Part shown: positions 7,372-37,110 of the stretch, piece after piece | Position numbering within the stretch: position 1 is the first letter of the stretch | How the letters are laid out: each line of letters opens with the position of its first letter | Assembly: GCF_004306155.1 (NCBI RefSeq) | Contig: NZ_BIMR01000066.1 | Span: 1-37,331 of the forward strand | DNA: 37,331 nt | Direction: 5' to 3' | Source: Cellulomonas biazotea | GTDB lineage: Bacteria > Actinomycetota > Actinomycetes > Actinomycetales > Cellulomonadaceae | The notes under the pieces: generated by a model | Told to the model about the DNA's origin: nothing | Database searches by the model: none | Seen by the model: only the letters and a program-made list of their open reading frames with translations | Made by a program: the position numbers and the translations under genes

Positions 7372-8334
7372 GTGGACACGCGTGGGAACGGGACGGGCGG
7401 CTGGTCCGTCGGTCTCGACATCGGGGGCAGCAAGGTGCTCGGCGTCGCGCTCGACCCTTCGGGCGCGGTGCGCCACGAGGTGCGGGCGTCGACCGTCCGA
7501 GGTCTGGACGGCGTCGTCTCGGGTGCCGTCGCGGCGGTCGAGCGGCTCGCGGACCTGGCCGGGGTCGCCGTGGGCGACCTGTCGGGCGTCGGTCTGGGGC
7601 TGCCGGGCGTCGTGGACGTCGCGGCGGGCACGGTCGAGCACGCCGTGAACCTCGGCATCGAGGCACGGGTCGGGCTCGCGGCGCTCGTCGCGGAGCGCGT
7701 CGGCGCGGTGCCGGTGCGGCTGGAGAACGACCTCAACGCGGCGGTCGTCGGTGCGGCGCAGTTCGTCGCCCCGCACGACGCCGACGGCGGGCGCGACCTC
7801 GCGTTCCTCGCGCTCGGCACGGGCCTGGCCGCGGGCCTGCTGCTCGACGGCCGGCTGCGGCGCGGGTCCCAGGGGGCGGCCGGCGAGATCGGTCACCTGA
7901 CGTTCGTGCCCGACGGCCTGCCGTGCAAGTGCGGGCAGGCGGGCTGCCTCGAGCAGTACGCGTCCGGCTCGGCGCTCGACGCCGCGTGGCCCAGCCGCAC
8001 GGGTGCGCCCGCGCCGGCCGAGGTCTTCGCGGCGGCGGCGGCCGGCGACCCGCGGGCCGTCGACCTGCGCGACCAGTTCGCGACGGCGGTCGCGGCGGCC
8101 GTGCGCGTCCTCGTGCTCACGTGCGACGTCCGGCACGTGGTGGTCGGTGGCGGCGTGAGCGCGGTGGGGGAGCCGCTGCTCGACGCGGTGCGCGGCGTCC
8201 TGGACCGTGCGGCGCGCACGTCGGCGTTCCTCGAGTCGATGCGCCTCGCCGAGCGCGTGACCCTGGCACCCTCGGGGGTGCCGGTCGGTGCCGTCGGTGC
8301 CGCGCTCGTGGGCCGCGGGGACGTCACGGCATGA
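7372..8334 (+). CDS. ROK-family sugar kinase, probable amino-sugar kinase
   Basis: A 320-residue cytoplasmic kinase expected to phosphorylate the imported sugar at O6 with ATP. The ATP-phosphate loop LDIGGSK (from Asp16) is intact, unlike in the repressor of this cluster. The catalytic Asp lies in LENDLNAA, the sugar-binding motif is GEIGH, and the zinc site is CKCGQAGCLEQ (Cys185, 187 and 192). There is no DNA-binding domain. The start GTG 7372 follows the permease stop by one base. With nagB next, N-acetylglucosamine or glucosamine is the most likely substrate. Related ROK kinases also act on glucose or mannose, so specificity is inferred from context. Confidence 0.9.
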   Translation: MDTRGNGTGGWSVGLDIGGSKVLGVALDPSGAVRHEVRASTVRGLDGVVSGAVAAVERLADLAGVAVGDLSGVGLGLPGVVDVAAGTVEHAVNLGIEARVGLAALVAERVGAVPVRLENDLNAAVVGAAQFVAPHDADGGRDLAFLALGTGLAAGLLLDGRLRRGSQGAAGEIGHLTFVPDGLPCKCGQAGCLEQYASGSALDAAWPSRTGAPAPAEVFAAAAAGDPRAVDLRDQFATAVAAAVRVLVLTCDVRHVVVGGGVSAVGEPLLDAVRGVLDRAARTSAFLESMRLAERVTLAPSGVPVGAVGAALVGRGDVTA

Positions 8335-8350
8335 CCGTCGCCGCCCGTCA

Positions 8351-8371
8351 CCGGGGCCGTCGCGGCCCCGG
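8351..8371 (+). other. Intercistronic hairpin between sugar kinase and nagB
   Basis: A perfect 9-bp stem, CCGGGGCCG and CGGCCCCGG, with a 3-nt TCG loop in the 70-bp gap before nagB. It may act as a partial terminator or mRNA stabiliser and so set the NagB level apart from the transporter. No T-run follows. Confidence 0.5.
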
Positions 8372-8404
8372 CCACCCGCTCGACCGCTCGGAAGGGACCC
8401 GCTG

Positions 8405-9187
8405 ATGGAGGTCGTCATCGCGCCGCCGGCGCAGCTCGCCCGGCTCGCCGCGGACGCCGTCGAGGAGCTCCTGCGGTCCCGGCCGACGGCCGTCCTCGGG
8501 CTCGCGACCGGGTCCAGCCCGCTCGCCGTCTACGACGAGCTCGCGCGGCGGCACGCGCAGGACGGCCTCTCGTTCGCGCGGGCCCGCGCGTTCATGCTCG
8601 ACGAGTACGTGGGGCTCGCGGCGGACCACCCGGAGCGGTACCGCAACGTCATCGAGAAGGAGATCGCCTCGCGCGTCGACTTCGCTCCTGGCGCCGTGCA
8701 GGGGCCTGACGGCCTCGCCGACGACGTCCGCGCGGCGTGCGCGGCGTACGAGCGGGCCATCGTGGACGCCGGCGGTGTCGACCTGCAGATCCTCGGGATC
8801 GGCACCGACGGCCACGTCGCGTTCAACGAGCCAGGCTCGTCGCTCGCGTCGCGCACCCGCATCAAGACGCTCACGCGGCAGACCCGGGAGGACAACGCGC
8901 GGTTCTTCGGCGGCGACGTCGCGCAGGTGCCGACGCACTGCCTGACGCAGGGCCTCGCGACGATCATGTCCGCGCGCCACCTGGTGCTGCTGGCGACGGG
9001 GCGCGGCAAGGCCGAGGCGGTCCACCAGCTCGCCGAGGGACCGGTGTCGGCGATGTGGCCCGCCACCGTCCTGCAGCACCACCCGCACGTGACGGTCCTC
9101 GTCGACGACGCCGCCGCGTCCCGCCTGCAGCTCGCCGACTACTACCGGGAGACGTTCGCCGCGAAGCCCGGCTGGCAGGGCCTCTGA
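8405..9187 (+). CDS. nagB: Glucosamine-6-phosphate deaminase
   Basis: Cytosolic enzyme converting glucosamine-6-phosphate to fructose-6-phosphate and ammonia, the exit of amino sugars into glycolysis. At 260 residues it is close to the 266 of the E. coli enzyme. The catalytic residues align with a constant offset of six: Asp66 in MLDEYVGL, Asp135 and His137 in GIGTDGHVAFNEPGSS, and Glu142. The phosphate loop LATGSSPL is near the N-terminus. ATG 8405 follows a GGAAGGG ribosome-binding site. It is the last gene of the cluster, 70 bp after the kinase. nagA (GlcNAc-6-P deacetylase) is not in the window, so either nagA is elsewhere or the imported sugar is not acetylated. Confidence 0.96.
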   Translation: MEVVIAPPAQLARLAADAVEELLRSRPTAVLGLATGSSPLAVYDELARRHAQDGLSFARARAFMLDEYVGLAADHPERYRNVIEKEIASRVDFAPGAVQGPDGLADDVRAACAAYERAIVDAGGVDLQILGIGTDGHVAFNEPGSSLASRTRIKTLTRQTREDNARFFGGDVAQVPTHCLTQGLATIMSARHLVLLATGRGKAEAVHQLAEGPVSAMWPATVLQHHPHVTVLVDDAAASRLQLADYYRETFAAKPGWQGL

Positions 9188-28257: not shown

Positions 28258-29200
28258 TGTCCCGGCGGACCGTCGGTCCGGCGTGCGGCGCAGGCGAGGC
28301 CGGCTCAGGGGACGACGACCGGTCGCGCGCGGACTCCACGGGCAGCAGGACCGCGCCGACGAGGAAGCACACCGCACCCGCGAACGTCCCGGCGTTGACG
28401 AGCGCCACGTTCGCGACCTCGTCCGACCCGTGCAGGTACCGCGCTGCGACGGCCGCGACGCCGAACGCGACCGACCCCGCGAGGTTGAGCGCCCCGATCG
28501 CCCACCCGACGGACCGGTCGGACCGGGGCAGGACCCCGCGGTTGACCTCGGCGTACGCGCACCAGCTCGCGACGAGGAAGCACACCGACCCGAGGACGTC
28601 GGGCGCCCACACGAGGGTCCTGTCGCCCGCGACCGCGAGGCCGGTCCGCGTCGCCGCGAACGTGCTGATGTTGAAGAACACCGTGCCGACGAGCTGCACC
28701 GTGGACGCCCACAGGTCGATGCGGTCGGGCCGGAACCGCACGAGCGCGGCGAGCCGCCGCCGTCGCGGCACGGTCGCCAGGACGTCGGGCGGGGCGTGCG
28801 CCGCCTCGTCGTACTGCAGGTACGCGGCGGTCGTGAAGAAGACCGACCCGACGAAGAACGTCCACGCCGTCACGCCCGTCGAGACCTGGTCGAAGTACAG
28901 GGGCAGCGATCCCAGCGCGAAGCACGCCGACCCGACCGCGAACAGCGCCCCCGTCCACCAGCTCCACGCCGACGCGCCCGCGCGCCGCACCGCACCGTCG
29001 GCCGGGACGGCCGACCTGGCCGGCGGTGCGGTGCGCGGTCGCAGCCCGAGGCCCTTGCGGTGACGGCGCGACGTCCACTCGACCTCCGCCCCGTCGGGCC
29101 GGCGCAGCGTCGCGTGCGTGACGAACGGGCCCGGCCCGCGGCTGTCGACCGCGGTCCACCCGTCGGGCAGGTCCGGCAGGGGCGAGGTCCGCGTCGTCAC
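28232..29200 (-). CDS. Six-helix YrhK-like membrane protein coupled to glutamate decarboxylase
   Basis: A 322-residue protein with an 80-residue soluble N-terminus (including DLPDGWTAVDSRGPGPFVTH) and six membrane helices. Each helix carries the motif G-[STA]-[VA]-x-F: GSACF (90), GSVFF (118), GTVFF (172), GSVCF (204), GSVAF (242) and GAVCF (274). This matches the YrhK-domain style, repeated. No transporter, protease or redox signature is seen. GTG 29200 overlaps the decarboxylase stop (GTGA), so it is made with that enzyme. It may serve GABA/proton handling or an acid-stress membrane role, but this is inference from context. Its last codons lie in the tRNA-Lys terminator stem. Confidence 0.82.
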   Translation of the reverse strand: MTTRTSPLPDLPDGWTAVDSRGPGPFVTHATLRRPDGAEVEWTSRRHRKGLGLRPRTAPPARSAVPADGAVRRAGASAWSWWTGALFAVGSACFALGSLPLYFDQVSTGVTAWTFFVGSVFFTTAAYLQYDEAAHAPPDVLATVPRRRRLAALVRFRPDRIDLWASTVQLVGTVFFNISTFAATRTGLAVAGDRTLVWAPDVLGSVCFLVASWCAYAEVNRGVLPRSDRSVGWAIGALNLAGSVAFGVAAVAARYLHGSDEVANVALVNAGTFAGAVCFLVGAVLLPVESARDRSSSPEPASPAPHAGPTVRRDNEGPSPLR

Positions 29201-30618
29201 GCCCGCAGGCCGACGCGCGCCTTGCTGTGCGCGGCGGCCCGGTCGGGGGCGGTCCAGACGTCGGGCTTGGCGGCGGCGCGCTGCGGCGGCTGCTCCGCGG
29301 CGAGCGTCTCCCAGGCGTGGTCGAGGTCCCGCAGCAGGACGTCGATCATCGGCCGGCTCAGGTCGAGGCGGACGACGATGCGCAGCAGGTGCACGTCCTG
29401 CGCGTCGGGCGGCAGGCTGTACGCGGGCACGATCCAGCCGTTCTCCCGCAGCCGCGCCGACAGGTGGTAGACGTCGAACCCCGGGTCGCCCTTGATGCGG
29501 AACGTCACCACCGGCTCCGCGAGCCCCGGGTTGAGGACCTCGAAGCGTCCCGACGCCTCCAGCGCCTCGTTGAGGTGGCGGGCGTTCGCGATCATGTTCG
29601 CGACGATCCGCGTGTACCCCTCGCGGCCGAGCCGCAGGAAGTTGTACATCTGCGCCTGGATCATCGCCGACCCGCGCGAGAAGTTGAACGTGTACGTCGG
29701 CTGCGCACCGCCCAGGTAGTTCACGCTGAACACGAGGTCCTCGGGCAGGCGTGACGCGTCCCGGAAGATCAGCCACCCGACGCCCGGGTACACCAGGCCG
29801 TACTTGTGGCCCGACGCGTTGATCGACGCGACCTGCTCCAGCCGGAAGTCCCACCGCAGGTCCGGCTCGGCGAAGGGCGCGACGAACGCGCCGCTCGCCC
29901 CGTCGACGTGCAGCGGGATGTCCCAGCCGCGCTCGGCCTTGATGCGGACCAGCAGGTCGTTGAGCTCCTCGATGGGGTCGGCCTCGCCGATGTGCGTCGT
30001 GCCGAGCACCGCGCCGACGGCGATCGTGTTCTCGTCGACCTGCGCCTCGACGTCGTCCGCGGCCAGCACGTAGCGGTCCGGCTTCATCGGGATCTTGCGC
30101 ATCTCGACGTCGAAGTAGTTCGCGAACTTGTCCCACACGACGTGCGTCTCCGCGCCGAACACGACGTTCGGCCGATCGGCGGGCAGGCCGGCGGCGAGCC
30201 GCCGCTGCCGCCACGCGCGCTTGTGCGCGAGCAGGCCCAGCATGATCGCCTCCGACGAGCCGATCGTCGCGACGCCCACGACCTGCGCCGGGTCGGGCGC
30301 GTGGAACAGGTCGCCCAGCATGTGCACGCACGCCTCCTCGACGAGCGACGCCGCGGGGTACTCCTCGTGGTCGATGTGGTTCTTGCGCAGGGAGTCGTGG
30401 ATGAGCTGCTCGGCCTGCGGCTCCATCCACGTCGTGACGAACGACGCGAGGTTGAGCGTCTCGCGCCCGTCGAGCATGAGCGCGGTGTGCAGCAGCTCGT
30501 ACACCTCGTCGGACCCGAGCCCCCGGTCGGGGAACCGTGTGCGGTCGAACCGCTCGCGGAAGCTCGGCCGTCCGTGGATCGGCCCGAACCCGTCGCTGCC
30601 CAGTGCTGTCTCGCTCAC
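29197..30618 (-). CDS. gad: Glutamate decarboxylase (PLP-dependent)
   Basis: A 473-residue cytosolic enzyme converting glutamate to GABA and CO2 with consumption of a proton. The length and layout match GadA/B. PLP-binding Lys272 lies in INASGHKYGLVYPGVGW, with IGSSEAIMLGLLAHKRAWRQ for cofactor phosphate and PLHVDGASGAFVAPF holding the Asp that contacts the pyridine nitrogen. The N-terminal segment LDGRETLNLASFVTTWMEPQ is family-specific. GTG 30618 has a strong GGAGGGG ribosome-binding site. No glutamate/GABA antiporter (gadC) is adjacent. Instead a six-helix membrane protein is translationally coupled downstream. Confidence 0.95.
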   Translation of the reverse strand: MSETALGSDGFGPIHGRPSFRERFDRTRFPDRGLGSDEVYELLHTALMLDGRETLNLASFVTTWMEPQAEQLIHDSLRKNHIDHEEYPAASLVEEACVHMLGDLFHAPDPAQVVGVATIGSSEAIMLGLLAHKRAWRQRRLAAGLPADRPNVVFGAETHVVWDKFANYFDVEMRKIPMKPDRYVLAADDVEAQVDENTIAVGAVLGTTHIGEADPIEELNDLLVRIKAERGWDIPLHVDGASGAFVAPFAEPDLRWDFRLEQVASINASGHKYGLVYPGVGWLIFRDASRLPEDLVFSVNYLGGAQPTYTFNFSRGSAMIQAQMYNFLRLGREGYTRIVANMIANARHLNEALEASGRFEVLNPGLAEPVVTFRIKGDPGFDVYHLSARLRENGWIVPAYSLPPDAQDVHLLRIVVRLDLSRPMIDVLLRDLDHAWETLAAEQPPQRAAAKPDVWTAPDRAAAHSKARVGLRA

Positions 30619-32360: not shown

Positions 32361-33365
32361 TCAGTCGGTCGCGAGCGACCCGTCGCTCGACAGGACCAGG
32401 CCGATGGCCGCGTCGCCCTGGCGGACGGCGGCACCGATGAGCCCGAAGTCGTACGACTTGAACTCGCCGATCTCGAGCCCGTAGGTCTCCTCGAGGCCCG
32501 GCTGGCAGAACGGCCGCTCGGGGCACTCGGGCGGGCCGGCGAGGACGAGCCCGCCGCAGGCCTCGGCGAGCTCGGTGAGCGTCGCGACGCCGTGCTCGTC
32601 CGCGAACGCCTGGGTCACGGCGAACGCGTTCTGGTCCTGCGCGGCCGACGGCTGGCCGACGGCGAGCCCGGACTCCTCGGCGAGCGGCGTCAGCGCGGCG
32701 ACCGTCTCGTCGACGTCGTCCGTCGAGACCGACGGGGCGTCGGGCCCGTTGACGCGCGCGTTGAGGAAGTCGGCGAGCGTCGCCGCGTACTCGGGGACCG
32801 TCGAGAGGGTGCCGTCCACGAGCGCCGGGAGGTAGGTGTCGCGGTTGCCGATCGTGCGGACCTCGACCTGGTACCCGGCCGAGCGCAGCACCTCGCCGTA
32901 GATCTCCGCGAGGGTCACGGACTCGGAGAAGTTCGCCGCGCCGACGACGAGCGACGTTCCCGCGCCGGACTGCTCGGTCGCCGCGAGCCCTTCGGTCTCG
33001 ACGTACTCCTTCGCGACCTCGCTCGACGTGCGGCGGTCGATGTCGACGGCCTTGTTGAGGTCGATGAGCTTGGGCGTGTCGAGCGACGCCGAGACGGTGT
33101 CGAGCAGCTCGACGACCGCGGGGCTCTGCTGCGCGACGGCCGCGTTGACGGCCGGGATGATGTTGTCGGCGTTCTGCAGGCCGCCGTCGTCCTCGAGGAC
33201 GACGAGCTGCTCCCCGGCGACGGGGTCGCAGGTGGCCTTGCCGGACGTCCCGGAGGACGTGGGGTCGGCCTCGCCGCCGCCGGAGCCGGGGGCGCCGCAG
33301 GCCCCCAGCGCCAGCACGGCGGCGGCGGCGATGATCGTGAGTCGGGCTGGACGGGTGGCACGCAT
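32361..33365 (-). CDS. Osmoprotectant (glycine betaine/choline-type) binding lipoprotein with permuted domain order
   Basis: A 334-residue lipoprotein (lipobox LGAC, Cys23). The part at residues 137-334 reads like the beginning and middle of OpuBC/ProX-type proteins: SLVVGAANFSESVTLAEIYG, STVPEYAATLADFL, QDQNAFAVT and FKSYDFGLIGAAVRQGD, and it ends at IGLVLSSDGSLATD. In normal family members this point is followed by LVVLEDD... and a terminal helical segment. Here that segment comes first, at residues 52-127: EQLVVLEDDGGLQNADNIIP to VDIDRRTSSEVAKEYVETEG. The domain therefore looks circularly permuted. Extra cysteines at 46, 270, 281 and 287 could form disulfides. GGAGA precedes ATG 33365 by 6 nt. 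It is the last gene behind the two permeases. Confidence 0.88.
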   Translation of the reverse strand: MRATRPARLTIIAAAAVLALGACGAPGSGGGEADPTSSGTSGKATCDPVAGEQLVVLEDDGGLQNADNIIPAVNAAVAQQSPAVVELLDTVSASLDTPKLIDLNKAVDIDRRTSSEVAKEYVETEGLAATEQSGAGTSLVVGAANFSESVTLAEIYGEVLRSAGYQVEVRTIGNRDTYLPALVDGTLSTVPEYAATLADFLNARVNGPDAPSVSTDDVDETVAALTPLAEESGLAVGQPSAAQDQNAFAVTQAFADEHGVATLTELAEACGGLVLAGPPECPERPFCQPGLEETYGLEIGEFKSYDFGLIGAAVRQGDAAIGLVLSSDGSLATD

Positions 33366-33442: not shown

Positions 33443-34216
33443 TCATGCGGTCGGGGCTGGTTCATTGGACCGGGAGCCCGCGGGGTCGGCAACCGGGGAG
33501 GGACGCCGCACGCGCAGGCGCGAGGGTCGTCCGGCACGTCGTCCGGCACGGTCGCGGGACCGCAGGCCGGCGGGCGTCACGGCGCGCTGGGCGAGGGCGA
33601 GCAGGCCTTCGGCGACCAGGCACAGGGCGGCGACGAGCAGGCCGCCCGCGAGGACCTGGCCGTAGCGCTGCGTCCCGAACCCGGTCACGACGATCGTGCC
33701 GAGGCTGCGGCCGCCGACGAGCGCGGCGAGCGGGACGGTCGCGAGCACCTGCACCGCGCCGGTGCGCACGCCGGCGGCGAGCAGGGGGATCGCGAGCGGG
33801 ACCTCGACCGCCCACAGGCGGCGCGAGCCCGACATGCCGACCCCGCGGGCGGCGTCGCGGACGTGCGCGTCGACCTCGCCGAGCCCGGTGACGGCACCGG
33901 ACAGCAGGGGCGGGACGGCGAAGACCGCGCACGCGAGGACGGTCGCGGGGTTGCCGAACAGGCCGCTCGCCGCCAGCAGCGTGAGCAGCGCGAGCGTCGG
34001 GAGCGCGCGCGTGGTGTTGGCGACGACGACGCCGACGGTCGCGCCCCGGCCGCGGTGGCCGAGCCACAGCCCGACGGGCAGCGCGACGACCGCCGCGAGC
34101 AGCACCGCCTGGACGGACACCAGGACGTGCACGCCGGTCAGTGCGATGACGCCGTTGCGCCCCGTCCAGTTGAGCGGGTCGTTGAGCCAGGCGAAGGCCT
34201 CGGTGAGGACGTCCAT
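33443..34216 (-). CDS. Osmoprotectant ABC transporter permease (OpuBB/ProW type)
   Basis: A 257-residue membrane subunit. The N-terminus DVLTEAFAWLNDPLNWTG is periplasmic-like, followed by about five to six helices, for example HVLVSVQAVLLAAVVALPVG and a long C-terminal helix region VLAGGLLVAALCLVAEGLLA. The EAA-like ATPase-docking loop reads VRDAARGVGMSGSRRLWAVE then VPLAIPLL. The last 45 residues are a basic, disordered tail. ATG 34216 lies 10 bp after the stop of the other permease. It is the second gene of the minus-strand operon, 77 bp ahead of the binding-protein gene. Confidence 0.92.
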   Translation of the reverse strand: MDVLTEAFAWLNDPLNWTGRNGVIALTGVHVLVSVQAVLLAAVVALPVGLWLGHRGRGATVGVVVANTTRALPTLALLTLLAASGLFGNPATVLACAVFAVPPLLSGAVTGLGEVDAHVRDAARGVGMSGSRRLWAVEVPLAIPLLAAGVRTGAVQVLATVPLAALVGGRSLGTIVVTGFGTQRYGQVLAGGLLVAALCLVAEGLLALAQRAVTPAGLRSRDRAGRRAGRPSRLRVRRPSPVADPAGSRSNEPAPTA

Positions 34217-34226
34217 CGGTGCCCCC

Positions 34227-34901
34227 TCAGACCGGCCGCGCCGAGCGGGCCCACGGCGTCACGAGGCGCCCCACGCCCGCGAGGACGAGGTCGCACACGA
34301 GCGCGAGCAGGAGGCACAGGACCGTCGCCGTCATGATCTCGGCGTGGTAGTTGCTGCGGAAGCCGCGGAACATCAGCTGCCCGAGCCCGCCGTAGCCGAC
34401 CACGACGCCCACCGTCACGAGCGCGACGGTCGTGACGGTCGCGAGGCGCAGCCCGGCGACGATGCTCGGCAGCGCGTTCGGCAGCTCCACGGTGAGCAGC
34501 AGGCGGGCGCGCCCGTACCCCATGCCGCGGGCGGCGTCGCGGACCGCGGGGTCGACGCCCTCCAGCCCGACCAGCACGTTCCGGGTGAGCACCAGCAGCG
34601 CGTACGCGACGAGCCCGATGAGCACGGTCGTCCGTCCGATCCCGGTGTACGGGGCGAGCACGGCGAACAGCGCGAGCGACGGGATCGTGTAGAGCACGCC
34701 CGCCACGCCGAGGACGGGCCCGGCCCAGCGGCGGCGCAGGTGCGCCCACGCGCCGAGCGGGAGCGCCACGAGCGACGCGATGACGACCGCCTGGACGGTC
34801 AGCGAGGCGTGCTGGGACAGCGCGGACAGCACGTCCGCGCTGTTGCGCTGCAGGTACTCCCACGAGAACCAGGGGTTGTCGGGTTGAGCCGCGAGCAGCA
34901 T
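34227..34901 (-). CDS. Osmoprotectant ABC transporter permease (OpuBD/ProW type)
   Basis: A 224-residue membrane subunit paralogous to its neighbour. Family elements are HASLTVQAVVIASLVALPLG, VLYTIPSLALFAVLAP, VLTRNVLVGLEGVDPAVRDA, the docking loop ARGMGYGRARLLLTVELPNA, and VGYGGLGQLMFRGF. About six helices are expected. The ATG at 34901 is chosen because TACGTT on the minus strand ends 6 nt upstream. It is the first gene of the minus-strand half of the transporter. Two similar permeases indicate a heterodimeric channel, as in OpuB/OpuC systems. Confidence 0.93.
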   Translation of the reverse strand: MLLAAQPDNPWFSWEYLQRNSADVLSALSQHASLTVQAVVIASLVALPLGAWAHLRRRWAGPVLGVAGVLYTIPSLALFAVLAPYTGIGRTTVLIGLVAYALLVLTRNVLVGLEGVDPAVRDAARGMGYGRARLLLTVELPNALPSIVAGLRLATVTTVALVTVGVVVGYGGLGQLMFRGFRSNYHAEIMTATVLCLLLALVCDLVLAGVGRLVTPWARSARPV

Positions 34902-35044
34902 CCGCCGAACGTAACCGCGACCTCCGACATCCGCACCATGCGACGGCGCGCTGCCCGGTCCGTGGACGGACGGGCCGTCGCAGGCGGACGGACGGATGTG
35001 GCCGGCGGAGGCGGGCGTCGGTGGTGGGCAGTAGCGTCCGGGGG
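34902..35044. promoter_or_regulatory. Bidirectional control region of the osmoprotectant transporter
   Basis: On the minus strand TACGTT (complement of 34908-34913) lies 6 nt before the permease ATG at 34901. On the plus strand TAGCGT (35032-35037) lies 7 nt before the ATPase ATG at 35045. Both fit leaderless starts. No operator palindrome is obvious in the 118 bp between them. Confidence 0.6.
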
Positions 35045-36187
35045 ATGGTCGAGCCCGCCATCCGCTTCGAGCACGTGCGCAAGGAGTACCCCGCCGTCCG
35101 CGGTCGGGCCGGCGCCGCCGTCGACGACCTCACCCTCGAGGTCCGCCCGCACGAGGTGCTCGTGCTGGTCGGGCCCAGCGGGTGCGGCAAGTCGACGACG
35201 CTGCGCATGGCCAACCGGCTCGTGGAGCCGACGTCGGGCCGGATCCTGCTGGAGGGCGAGGACGTCACGCACGTCGACCCCGTGCAGCTGCGGCGCCGCA
35301 TCGGGTACGTGATCCAGGACGTCGGCCTGTTCCCGCACCGCACGGTCGCGCAGAACATCGCGACCGTCCCGCGGCTGCTCGGGTGGGACGCGAAGCGGAC
35401 CGCGGCACGCGTCGACGAGCTGCTCGACCTCGTCGGCCTCGACCCCGCCCGGTACGCACGGCGCTACCCGCACGAGCTGTCCGGGGGTGAGCGCCAACGC
35501 GTCGGCGTCGCGCGGGCCCTCGCGACCGACCCGCCGGTGCTGCTCATGGACGAGCCGTTCGGCGCCGTCGACCCGGTCGGGCGGCGCCGGCTGCAGACGG
35601 AGTTCGCGCGGATCCAGCGCGAGGTCGGCACCACGGTGATGCTCGTCACGCACGACATCGACGAGGCCGTCCGCATGGGCGACCGGGTGGCGGTGCTGAG
35701 CACCGGCGCGCACGTCGAGCAGCTCGCCTCGCCGCTCGACGTCGTGGCCCGCCCTGCCACCGACGCGGTCGCCGACCTCGTCGGGCGCGGCCGGCTCGCG
35801 CGCCTGCTCGCCCTCGGCCGGCTGGAGCGGACCGACGTCGACGAGGTTCCGGGACCGGGCCGGGCCGCGATCGGCACGGTCGACGTCGGTACGGAGCTCG
35901 GCGACGTCCTCGCGACGCTCCTCGCGTCCCCCGGCGACGGCGCGGACGGACGACTCGACGTCGTCGAGGCGGGCCGTGCCGTCGGGTCGGTGACCGCGGC
36001 GACCGTCCTGCGGGCGCTGCGACGGCTCACCGACGCGGCCGGCGCCGACGGGAACGAGGGCGACCCGGACGGCTCCGCGACCACCCGCGGGCCCGCCGGC
36101 AGCCCCGACCTCGACCGACGCCTCCCCGACCCGCACCGCCCGGGCCCTGACGCGGGCGCCGACCGCGTCGGTACGCTGCCGACGTGA
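35045..36187 (+). CDS. Osmoprotectant ABC transporter ATP-binding protein (OpuBA/ProV type)
   Basis: A 380-residue cytoplasmic ATPase. Walker A is GPSGCGKST (43-51), the Q-loop is VIQDVGLFPHRTV, the signature is LSGGERQR (145-152), Walker B is LLMDEPFGAVDP (Asp169-Glu170) and the H-loop is VTHDIDEAVRMGD. The length and the segment about 280-325 (VGTELGDVLATLL to RAVGSVTAATVLRALR) fit one shortened CBS-like regulatory domain, a place where ionic strength is sensed in OpuA-type systems. The last 50 residues are acidic/Pro-rich and disordered. It is on the strand opposite its permeases, sharing the divergent region. The stop overlaps the ATP-grasp start (GTGA). Confidence 0.94.
   Translation: MVEPAIRFEHVRKEYPAVRGRAGAAVDDLTLEVRPHEVLVLVGPSGCGKSTTLRMANRLVEPTSGRILLEGEDVTHVDPVQLRRRIGYVIQDVGLFPHRTVAQNIATVPRLLGWDAKRTAARVDELLDLVGLDPARYARRYPHELSGGERQRVGVARALATDPPVLLMDEPFGAVDPVGRRRLQTEFARIQREVGTTVMLVTHDIDEAVRMGDRVAVLSTGAHVEQLASPLDVVARPATDAVADLVGRGRLARLLALGRLERTDVDEVPGPGRAAIGTVDVGTELGDVLATLLASPGDGADGRLDVVEAGRAVGSVTAATVLRALRRLTDAAGADGNEGDPDGSATTRGPAGSPDLDRRLPDPHRPGPDAGADRVGTLPT
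36172..36177 (+). promoter_or_regulatory. Candidate internal -10 box TACGCT before the ATP-grasp gene
   Basis: TACGCT inside the end of the ATPase gene lies 6 nt before GTG 36184, so the ligase gene may also have its own leaderless transcript. Confidence 0.4.
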
Positions 36188-37110
36188 CCCCTACCGCCGC
36201 ACGGCTCGCTCTCGCCACCTGCGCCGAGCTCCCCGAGCTCGACCCCGACGACCAGCCGCTGCGCGACGCGCTGCTCGCGCGCGGCATCGCGACCGACCCC
36301 GTCGTGTGGGACGACCCGACCGTCGACTGGTCGACGTACCCGCACGTGCTGGTCCGCTCGACGTGGGACTACACCGACCGGCCGCGCCTGTTCGCGGACT
36401 GGGCCCGCCGCGTCGAGCGCACGAGCGCGCTGCTCAACCCGGCGGACGTCGTCGTGTGGAACATCGACAAGACGTACCTGCGCGACCTCGAGCAGCGGGG
36501 TCTGCCGATCGTCCCGACCATCTGGCTCGATCCGGAGCGCAACTTCGACGCGCGCGCGATCCACACCCGGTTCCCGGCGTTCGGCGACTTCGTCGTCAAG
36601 CCGACCGTCAGCGCGGGCTCGCGCGACACGGGCCGCTACCAGGCCGACGAGACCCCGTCGCGGGCCTTGGCGATCCGGCACGCCAAGAACCTGCTCGGCG
36701 TCGGCCGGCACGTGATGATCCAGCGCTACCTCAAGCAGGTCGACACCGTCGGCGAGACCGCGCTGGTCTACGTCGACGGCGCCTTCAGCCACGCGGTCCG
36801 CAAGGGCGCGCTGCTCGAGGGCCCGTACCGCGAGGGGGAGACCGAGGGCGTGCTCTACCGGCGTGAGGTCATGTCGGCCCGCGAGGCGAGCGACGCCGAG
36901 CGCGAGGTCGGCGACCGCGTGCTCACGGCGCTGGCGGAGATCTTCCCGCAGCACGCCGACCCCCTGCTGTACGCCCGGGTCGACCTCATCCCCGACGACG
37001 AGGGCCACCCCGTCGTCCTCGAGGTCGAGCTCACCGAGCCGTCGTTCTTCTTCGGGTACGCCCCGGGGTCGGCGGACGTCTTCGCGGACGCGCTCGCGAA
37101 GCGCCTCTGA
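36184..37110 (+). CDS. ATP-grasp ligase, RimK/DcsG-like
   Basis: A 308-residue cytoplasmic protein. The N-terminal pre-ATP-grasp part includes WDDPTVDWSTYPHVLVRSTW then DYTDRPRLFADWARRVERT and LNPADVVVWNIDKTYLRDLE. This layout resembles the DcsG (O-ureidoserine cyclase) and RimK/glutathione synthase-like ATP-grasp group. ATP-grasp elements include the Lys of FVVKPTVSAGSRDTGRY, VMIQRYLKQV and the C-terminal metal site YARVDLIPDDEG then VVLEVELTEPSFFF (Asp, Glu, Glu). These ligases join a carboxylate to an amine or thiol; substrate is unknown here. GTG 36184 overlaps the ATPase stop, so it is co-expressed with the osmoprotectant ATPase. Confidence 0.9.
   Translation: MTPTAARLALATCAELPELDPDDQPLRDALLARGIATDPVVWDDPTVDWSTYPHVLVRSTWDYTDRPRLFADWARRVERTSALLNPADVVVWNIDKTYLRDLEQRGLPIVPTIWLDPERNFDARAIHTRFPAFGDFVVKPTVSAGSRDTGRYQADETPSRALAIRHAKNLLGVGRHVMIQRYLKQVDTVGETALVYVDGAFSHAVRKGALLEGPYREGETEGVLYRREVMSAREASDAEREVGDRVLTALAEIFPQHADPLLYARVDLIPDDEGHPVVLEVELTEPSFFFGYAPGSADVFADALAKRL

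Follow-up and report, generated by a model that had tools for sequence, protein, structure and literature searches.

The closest described systems are the type II binding proteins AfProX (1sw1), E. coli OsmF (4wep) and EgtUC (9egh), which belong to the same sequence family as the protein investigated here, P0002, so that a two-lobe fold is expected for it by homology. EgtUC and AfProX are described as type II solute-binding proteins (SBPs) of subcluster F-III (PMC9732360). This subcluster is marked by two lobes and a long hinge of two strands. In contrast to P0002, all three proteins keep the normal order of their segments. Circular permutation has been reported among the glycine betaine-binding proteins 2b4l, 1r9l and 1sw1 (PMC2395249). 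B. subtilis OpuAC (2b4l) shares with P0002 a circularly permuted chain, here in comparison with E. coli ProX; OpuAC and ProX match as whole chains with an E value of 1.6e-7 and with the pieces in swapped order, the single pieces being weak (16.5, 2.3 and 13.5 bits). However, OpuAC is cut between ProX residues 121 and 154, before the first lobe-2 strand and at about the site called CP3 below, whereas the cut of P0002 lies at profile positions 241-243. Tp0684 (MglB-2) of Treponema pallidum is a permuted glucose-binding lipoprotein, for which the authors suggest a link to membrane tethering (PMC4990184). It resembles P0002 as a natural permutant, as the binding protein of an ABC importer and in its lipid anchor, but differs in its type I glucose-binding fold, its family and its cut. 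OpuAC and Tp0684 were the only clear cases of naturally permuted importer binding proteins to emerge from a literature search that was mostly outside subscription journals. Judged by sequence comparison, P0002 differs from OpuAC in its cut site; it has in addition a cysteine pair specific to its lineage, and there are signs that permutation has recurred.

The P0002 gene has been identified in a stretch of 37,331 nucleotides from Cellulomonas biazotea (contig NZ_BIMR01000066.1), the whole of which is referred to as the window. The features of the gene and of the adjoining transporter genes are collected in Table 1.

Table 1. Position of P0002, its parts and the neighbouring transporter genes in the window
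Feature	Position	Strand	Basis
Whole SBP gene P0002, 334-aa lipoprotein	32361..33365	-	open frame; intact relatives
Signal peptide and lipobox, residues 1-23	33297..33365	-	LGAC by reading
Gly/Ser/Thr-rich tether, residues 24-45	33231..33296	-	by reading
Cys46, new N-terminal strap	33228..33230	-	110/110 distinct permuted proteins
Residues 52-127, C-terminal segment of normal members	32985..33212	-	profile, PDB and rotation alignments
Residues 128-137, linker between the former ends	32955..32984	-	sequence and profile-match borders
Residues 138-334, N-terminal segment of normal members	32364..32954	-	profile, PDB and rotation alignments
Cys270, lobe 2	32556..32558	-	110/110 permuted (3 by eye), 0/59 normal relatives
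Cys281 ... Cys287 pair, also in normal relatives	32505..32525	-	108/110 permuted, 59/59 normal
Stop codon of P0002	32361-32363	-	
Permease B (PF00528)	33443..34216	-	Pfam
Permease A (PF00528)	34227..34901	-	Pfam
ProV-like ATPase, divergent (PF00005)	35021..36187	+	Pfam and TIGR01186

On sequence evidence, P0002 is confirmed as a real natural circular permutant of the OpuAC/ProX/OsmF-type binding domain, in which the last ~75 residues precede the first ~200. The comparisons include; (i) the Pfam OpuAC profile PF04069, which is matched at 121.4 bits (gathering cut-off 21.2) in two stretches, residues 138-331 corresponding to profile positions 2-183, and of which, in the genome search, positions 187-256 lie upstream of positions 2-183 in the same orientation; (ii) the OsmF model, positions 199-281 of 283 aligning with residues 45-127; (iii) phmmer alignments against the PDB, in which residues 137-317 correspond to AfProX 6-182 and residues 53-128 to AfProX 200-274, the latter being weak alone (14.9 bits); (iv) rotation of the chain. 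In native P0002 a continuous PF04069 match in normal order, such as the single stretch 2-256 of E. coli ProX, is absent and it is present only after rotation, where one match covers positions 2-256 of 257 at 130.5 bits, against 121.4 bits over two stretches. Against a profile built from 41 relatives of normal order, native P0002 gives two domains (79.2 and 264.0 bits) and the rotated protein a single one (351.4 bits, positions 42-319 of 320), whereas none of 32 control rotations in 10-residue steps yielded one domain. By these alignments P0002 is an OpuAC member by homology and a variant by topology.

The earlier note had proposed exactly this order, with the normally final segment (52-127) ahead of the start segment, and the Pfam, PDB and rotation matches bear it out, with borders that agree within a few residues. 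The short linker that it placed between the old ends (residues 128-137) holds as well; in the permuted proteins -2 to 8 residues separate the two profile matches. The check that it suggested, joining the segments in restored order, gave the continuous full-length match described above. An assembly fault has been rejected, as the permuted order occurs intact and in one reading frame in relatives from many assemblies. The other OpuAC matches in the genome were set aside by reading as molybdate-binding-like (L002) and NMT1/ThiY-type-like (L004).

The cut of P0002 is common, within profile resolution, to 110 distinct proteins, P0002 included. The permuted order was read in one frame in all 80 of the best loci among 196 found in genome contigs; these were the best matches to a permuted query, hence no frequency can be estimated from them. 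In the order, 155 of 198 genomes, the window's own included, have a match at E <= 0.001, and at least 22 of the 198 carry the permuted order, one of them (L016) interrupted by a contig end. The permuted loci occur in Cellulomonas, Oerskovia, Actinotalea, Myceligenerans, Demequina, Micromonospora, Pengzhenrongella, Xylanimonas and Verrucosispora, as well as in MAGs. A class-wide draw returned matches at E <= 1e-30 in 260 of 394 genomes, with 17 genomes having a match that spans the permuted query among the matches listed. A phylum-wide draw returned 12 of 396 genomes at E <= 1e-60, two of them with the P0002-type permutation (one being the window's own) and one with another permutation; the order, class and phylum draws overlap. 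L027-L034 have the normal order, with identities of 43-51% in the long part and 41-46% in the short one. The suggestion that the architecture is widespread but unremarked is upheld for the actinobacterial spread. Within the family, OpuAC of B. subtilis, permuted at another site, had already been remarked upon (PMC2395249).

Cys23, the presumed lipid anchor of P0002, is invariant in all 69 rows of the P0002 alignment A1. The same alignment holds 35 invariant columns, which speaks for a functional protein.

According to the figure legend in PMC9732360, lobe 1 of EgtUC consists of residues 232-331 and 445-503 and lobe 2 of residues 341-432. The PDB alignment, numbered by F293 and agreeing at Y337, maps the cut of P0002 to EgtUC 426-429, inside lobe 2 and just before the second hinge linker (433-444). 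Residues 52-127 thereby cover the last lobe-2 strand, the second hinge linker and the last part of lobe 1, and residues 138-334 the first part of lobe 1, the first hinge linker and the rest of lobe 2. Both hinge strands are kept, residues 57-68 corresponding to the second linker and 237-245 to the first. In this alignment both chain ends lie in lobe 1 in normal members and in lobe 2 in P0002. With the cut at this place, the lipid anchor is expected to have shifted to lobe 2, away from lobe 1, and P0002 would then be tethered by lobe 2. The earlier note had located the anchored terminus at the inter-lobe region; the new ends do lie beside the second hinge linker, yet within lobe 2 and not between the lobes as such. 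The tether from the lipid cysteine to the strap cysteine has a median of ~23 residues among the permuted proteins, the maximum of 225 being an artefact of wrongly assigned lipoboxes.

Two pairs of cysteines occur in P0002. A strap cysteine before the first core strand was recovered by pattern in every one of the 110 permuted proteins. Cys270 was found in 103 of them by profile column, in 107 by pattern and in the remaining 3 by eye in the sequences, and the corresponding profile column held no cysteine in the 59 normal relatives. Cys281 and Cys287 are each missing in two of the 110 permuted proteins, and both occur in every normal relative. L026 and L108 are without Cys281 and Cys287 and yet keep Cys46 and Cys270; the loss of one pair with retention of the other suggests the pairings 46-270 and 281-287, and we infer disulfides accordingly placed. 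In the usual type II strand order, the first and the last strand of lobe 2 both start at the pole away from the cleft. With the two starts at the same pole, a seven-residue strap could carry Cys46 to Cys270, and the putative Cys46-Cys270 disulfide would fasten the strand at the new, tethered N-terminus to lobe 2. Reading of four normal-order relatives (L136, L138, L139 and L142) showed an additional cysteine directly behind the tether and a second one where the first helix ends; perhaps these form a parallel staple near the anchored end.

The genes next to P0002 encode an ATPase and two permeases, and ATPase, permeases and SBP thus lie together, as in OpuB/OsmF-type ABC importers. The ATPase scores 282.9 bits against the TIGR01186 proV model, under its cut-off of 326.6. 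Further out in the window, a glutamate decarboxylase-like gene (29197-30618, minus strand) and an ATP-grasp-like gene (36184-37110, plus strand), which begins before the ATPase gene has ended, have been recognized by reading. The context was compared for 28 loci, 16 permuted and 12 normal, and the arrangement of an ATPase divergent from permease A, permease B and SBP is complete in 14 of the permuted and 11 of the normal contexts. The locus of L154 (normal order) is incomplete at a contig end, the SBP of L146 (permuted) adjoins the ATPase and not the permeases, and no ATPase or permease match was found in 16 kb of sequence at L145, a divergent permuted gene (7856-8728, the same gene as L026). 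Since the same divergent locus surrounds permuted and normal genes, the rearrangement most likely took place inside the transporter locus.

The label "osmoprotectant-binding" given in the earlier note is poorly supported by the binding residues. Six ligand residues of AfProX are listed in PMC10087775, five of which are covered by the P0002 alignment, Y190 lying outside. Y63, D109 and R149 are kept as Y193, D244 and R284, whereas Y111 is replaced by N246 and Y214 by D67; EgtUC Y419 aligns with L325. SBPs for quaternary ammonium compounds are described as having three or four aromatic residues arranged as a cage (PMC10087775), and no such cage is seen in P0002 in the alignment to this one homologue. 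The AfProX betaine cage thus appears mostly not conserved, and the replacement of the two tyrosines makes a simple betaine doubtful as the ligand of P0002. The score of P0002 against the NCBIfam OsmF equivalog NF049931 is 69.4 bits, under the curated cut-off of 400 bits.

Other permutations of the domain have been identified in Actinomycetota. By the position of the cut, the P0002 type (profile ~241-243) is designated CP1, and two further types CP2 (profile 209) and CP3 (profile 176-177). CP2 was found in L177 (G905; the same as L172), in L178 (G898) and in four relatives, the loci labelled CP2 being L177, L178 and L219-L224; a search through the 24 genomes of one family recovered full-length copies in 6. 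CP3 is represented by L179 (G836) and L212; L179 has a 78% relative in G1080, and in the family concerned the type occurs in 2 of 14 genomes. These proteins are, like P0002, permuted, apparently anchored, of OpuAC type, from the same phylum and cut in lobe 2, their cuts corresponding to P0002 residues about 301 (CP2) and 268-269 (CP3); they differ in the cut position itself. Counterparts of Cys46 and Cys270 are absent from L177, L178 and L179, the three other-cut proteins examined. The genes L207 (4927-7005, plus strand) and L208 (5070-7352, minus strand) encode lipoprotein-like chains with a permuted OpuAC part, cut near 171-179, followed by PG_binding_1 and a polysaccharide deacetylase; in these chains, which come from two families of the phylum, the binding domain seems to belong to an enzyme of the cell wall. 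CP2, CP3 and these fusions were spotted through matches spanning both parts of a query, so the search depended on cut position.

The number of origins was approached with a quick SBP tree of 82 chosen rows, with SH-aLRT as its only support. In this tree all CP1 rows but one, 28 of 29, group in a single clade (SH-aLRT 99). The remaining row, L131, falls among normal-order rows in the free tree with weak support, its nearest rows by path being normal, and L026, L207 and L208 have long branches. A single clade of all 29 CP1 rows is not rejected (AU p 0.54), whereas single clades of CP1, CP2 and CP3 together (AU p 0.0001) and of CP2 with CP3 (AU p 0.038) are. The cut-type labels were set from the cut sites before the tree, while the unions for the AU test were picked after it had been seen and left aside CP1 with CP2 alone, CP1 with CP3 alone and the fusions. 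A tree of the transporter genes from 29 loci has a branch (67/96; 62% of bootstrap trees) that keeps the 15 CP1 loci together on the same side. One origin of CP1 is therefore likely, as far as these trees reach.

P0002 is, with high probability, a working type II solute-binding lipoprotein that serves an ABC importer of the OsmF/OpuB type and whose gene was permuted in its own locus. The permutation probably took place once, in the ancestor of a group of Actinomycetes and within the transporter locus. A short linker would have joined the old ends, and the new ends would have been placed in a lobe-2 loop just before the last strand, leaving the fold unchanged. With the anchor acting via lobe 2 instead of lobe 1, the Cys46-Cys270 disulfide would hold the new N-terminal strand on lobe 2, standing in for the loop that was lost, and the protein would still close on its ligand and dock on the two permeases.

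The permutation itself may have been selectively neutral, a possibility to which we give slightly less than even weight. Nearby ends would allow duplication and truncation to re-cut the fold at harmless loops, and the cysteine pair would be a repair of stability only. Such a history agrees with how briefly the former ends are joined and with the several cut sites, and tethers of the median length given above would blunt any effect of the anchor position. Against it stand the invariance of the Cys46/Cys270 pair in all 110 proteins and the location of all three cut sites found here in lobe 2, which makes up roughly one third of the domain (~92 of 272 residues), a location for which a rough post hoc estimate gives a chance of ~4% in a search that was not blind to the cut. 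A domain-swapped dimer, in which residues 52-127 pack into a partner chain and complete its fold, is compatible with the sequence, but nothing in it calls for such an exchange and we consider it very improbable. A two-domain protein, with 138-334 as a complete binding domain and 52-127 as an extra one, deserves hardly any credence, as no supporting point was found for it, the profile section contributed by 52-127 is missing from 138-334, rotation yields a single full-length match and normal relatives bear the same segment at the C-terminal end.

Beyond the permutation of P0002 in its own locus, it is conceivable, though we would sooner doubt than assert it, that permutation arose at least three times in the lipid-anchored OsmF/ProX-type SBPs of Actinomycetota, each time shifting the ends and the anchor from lobe 1 to lobe 2, with the largest lineage adding an invariant disulfide. 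If this were true, the tether position of the binding protein would itself be under selection, and natural permutation would be a recurrent way to change it. The standard annotation, two partial OpuAC matches, conceals such rearrangements, and the permuted proteins offer natural scaffolds for biosensor design. Permuted and normal forms in the same locus of related bacteria make a matched comparison possible and raise the question of whether an anchor on lobe 1 or on lobe 2 affects docking and transport.
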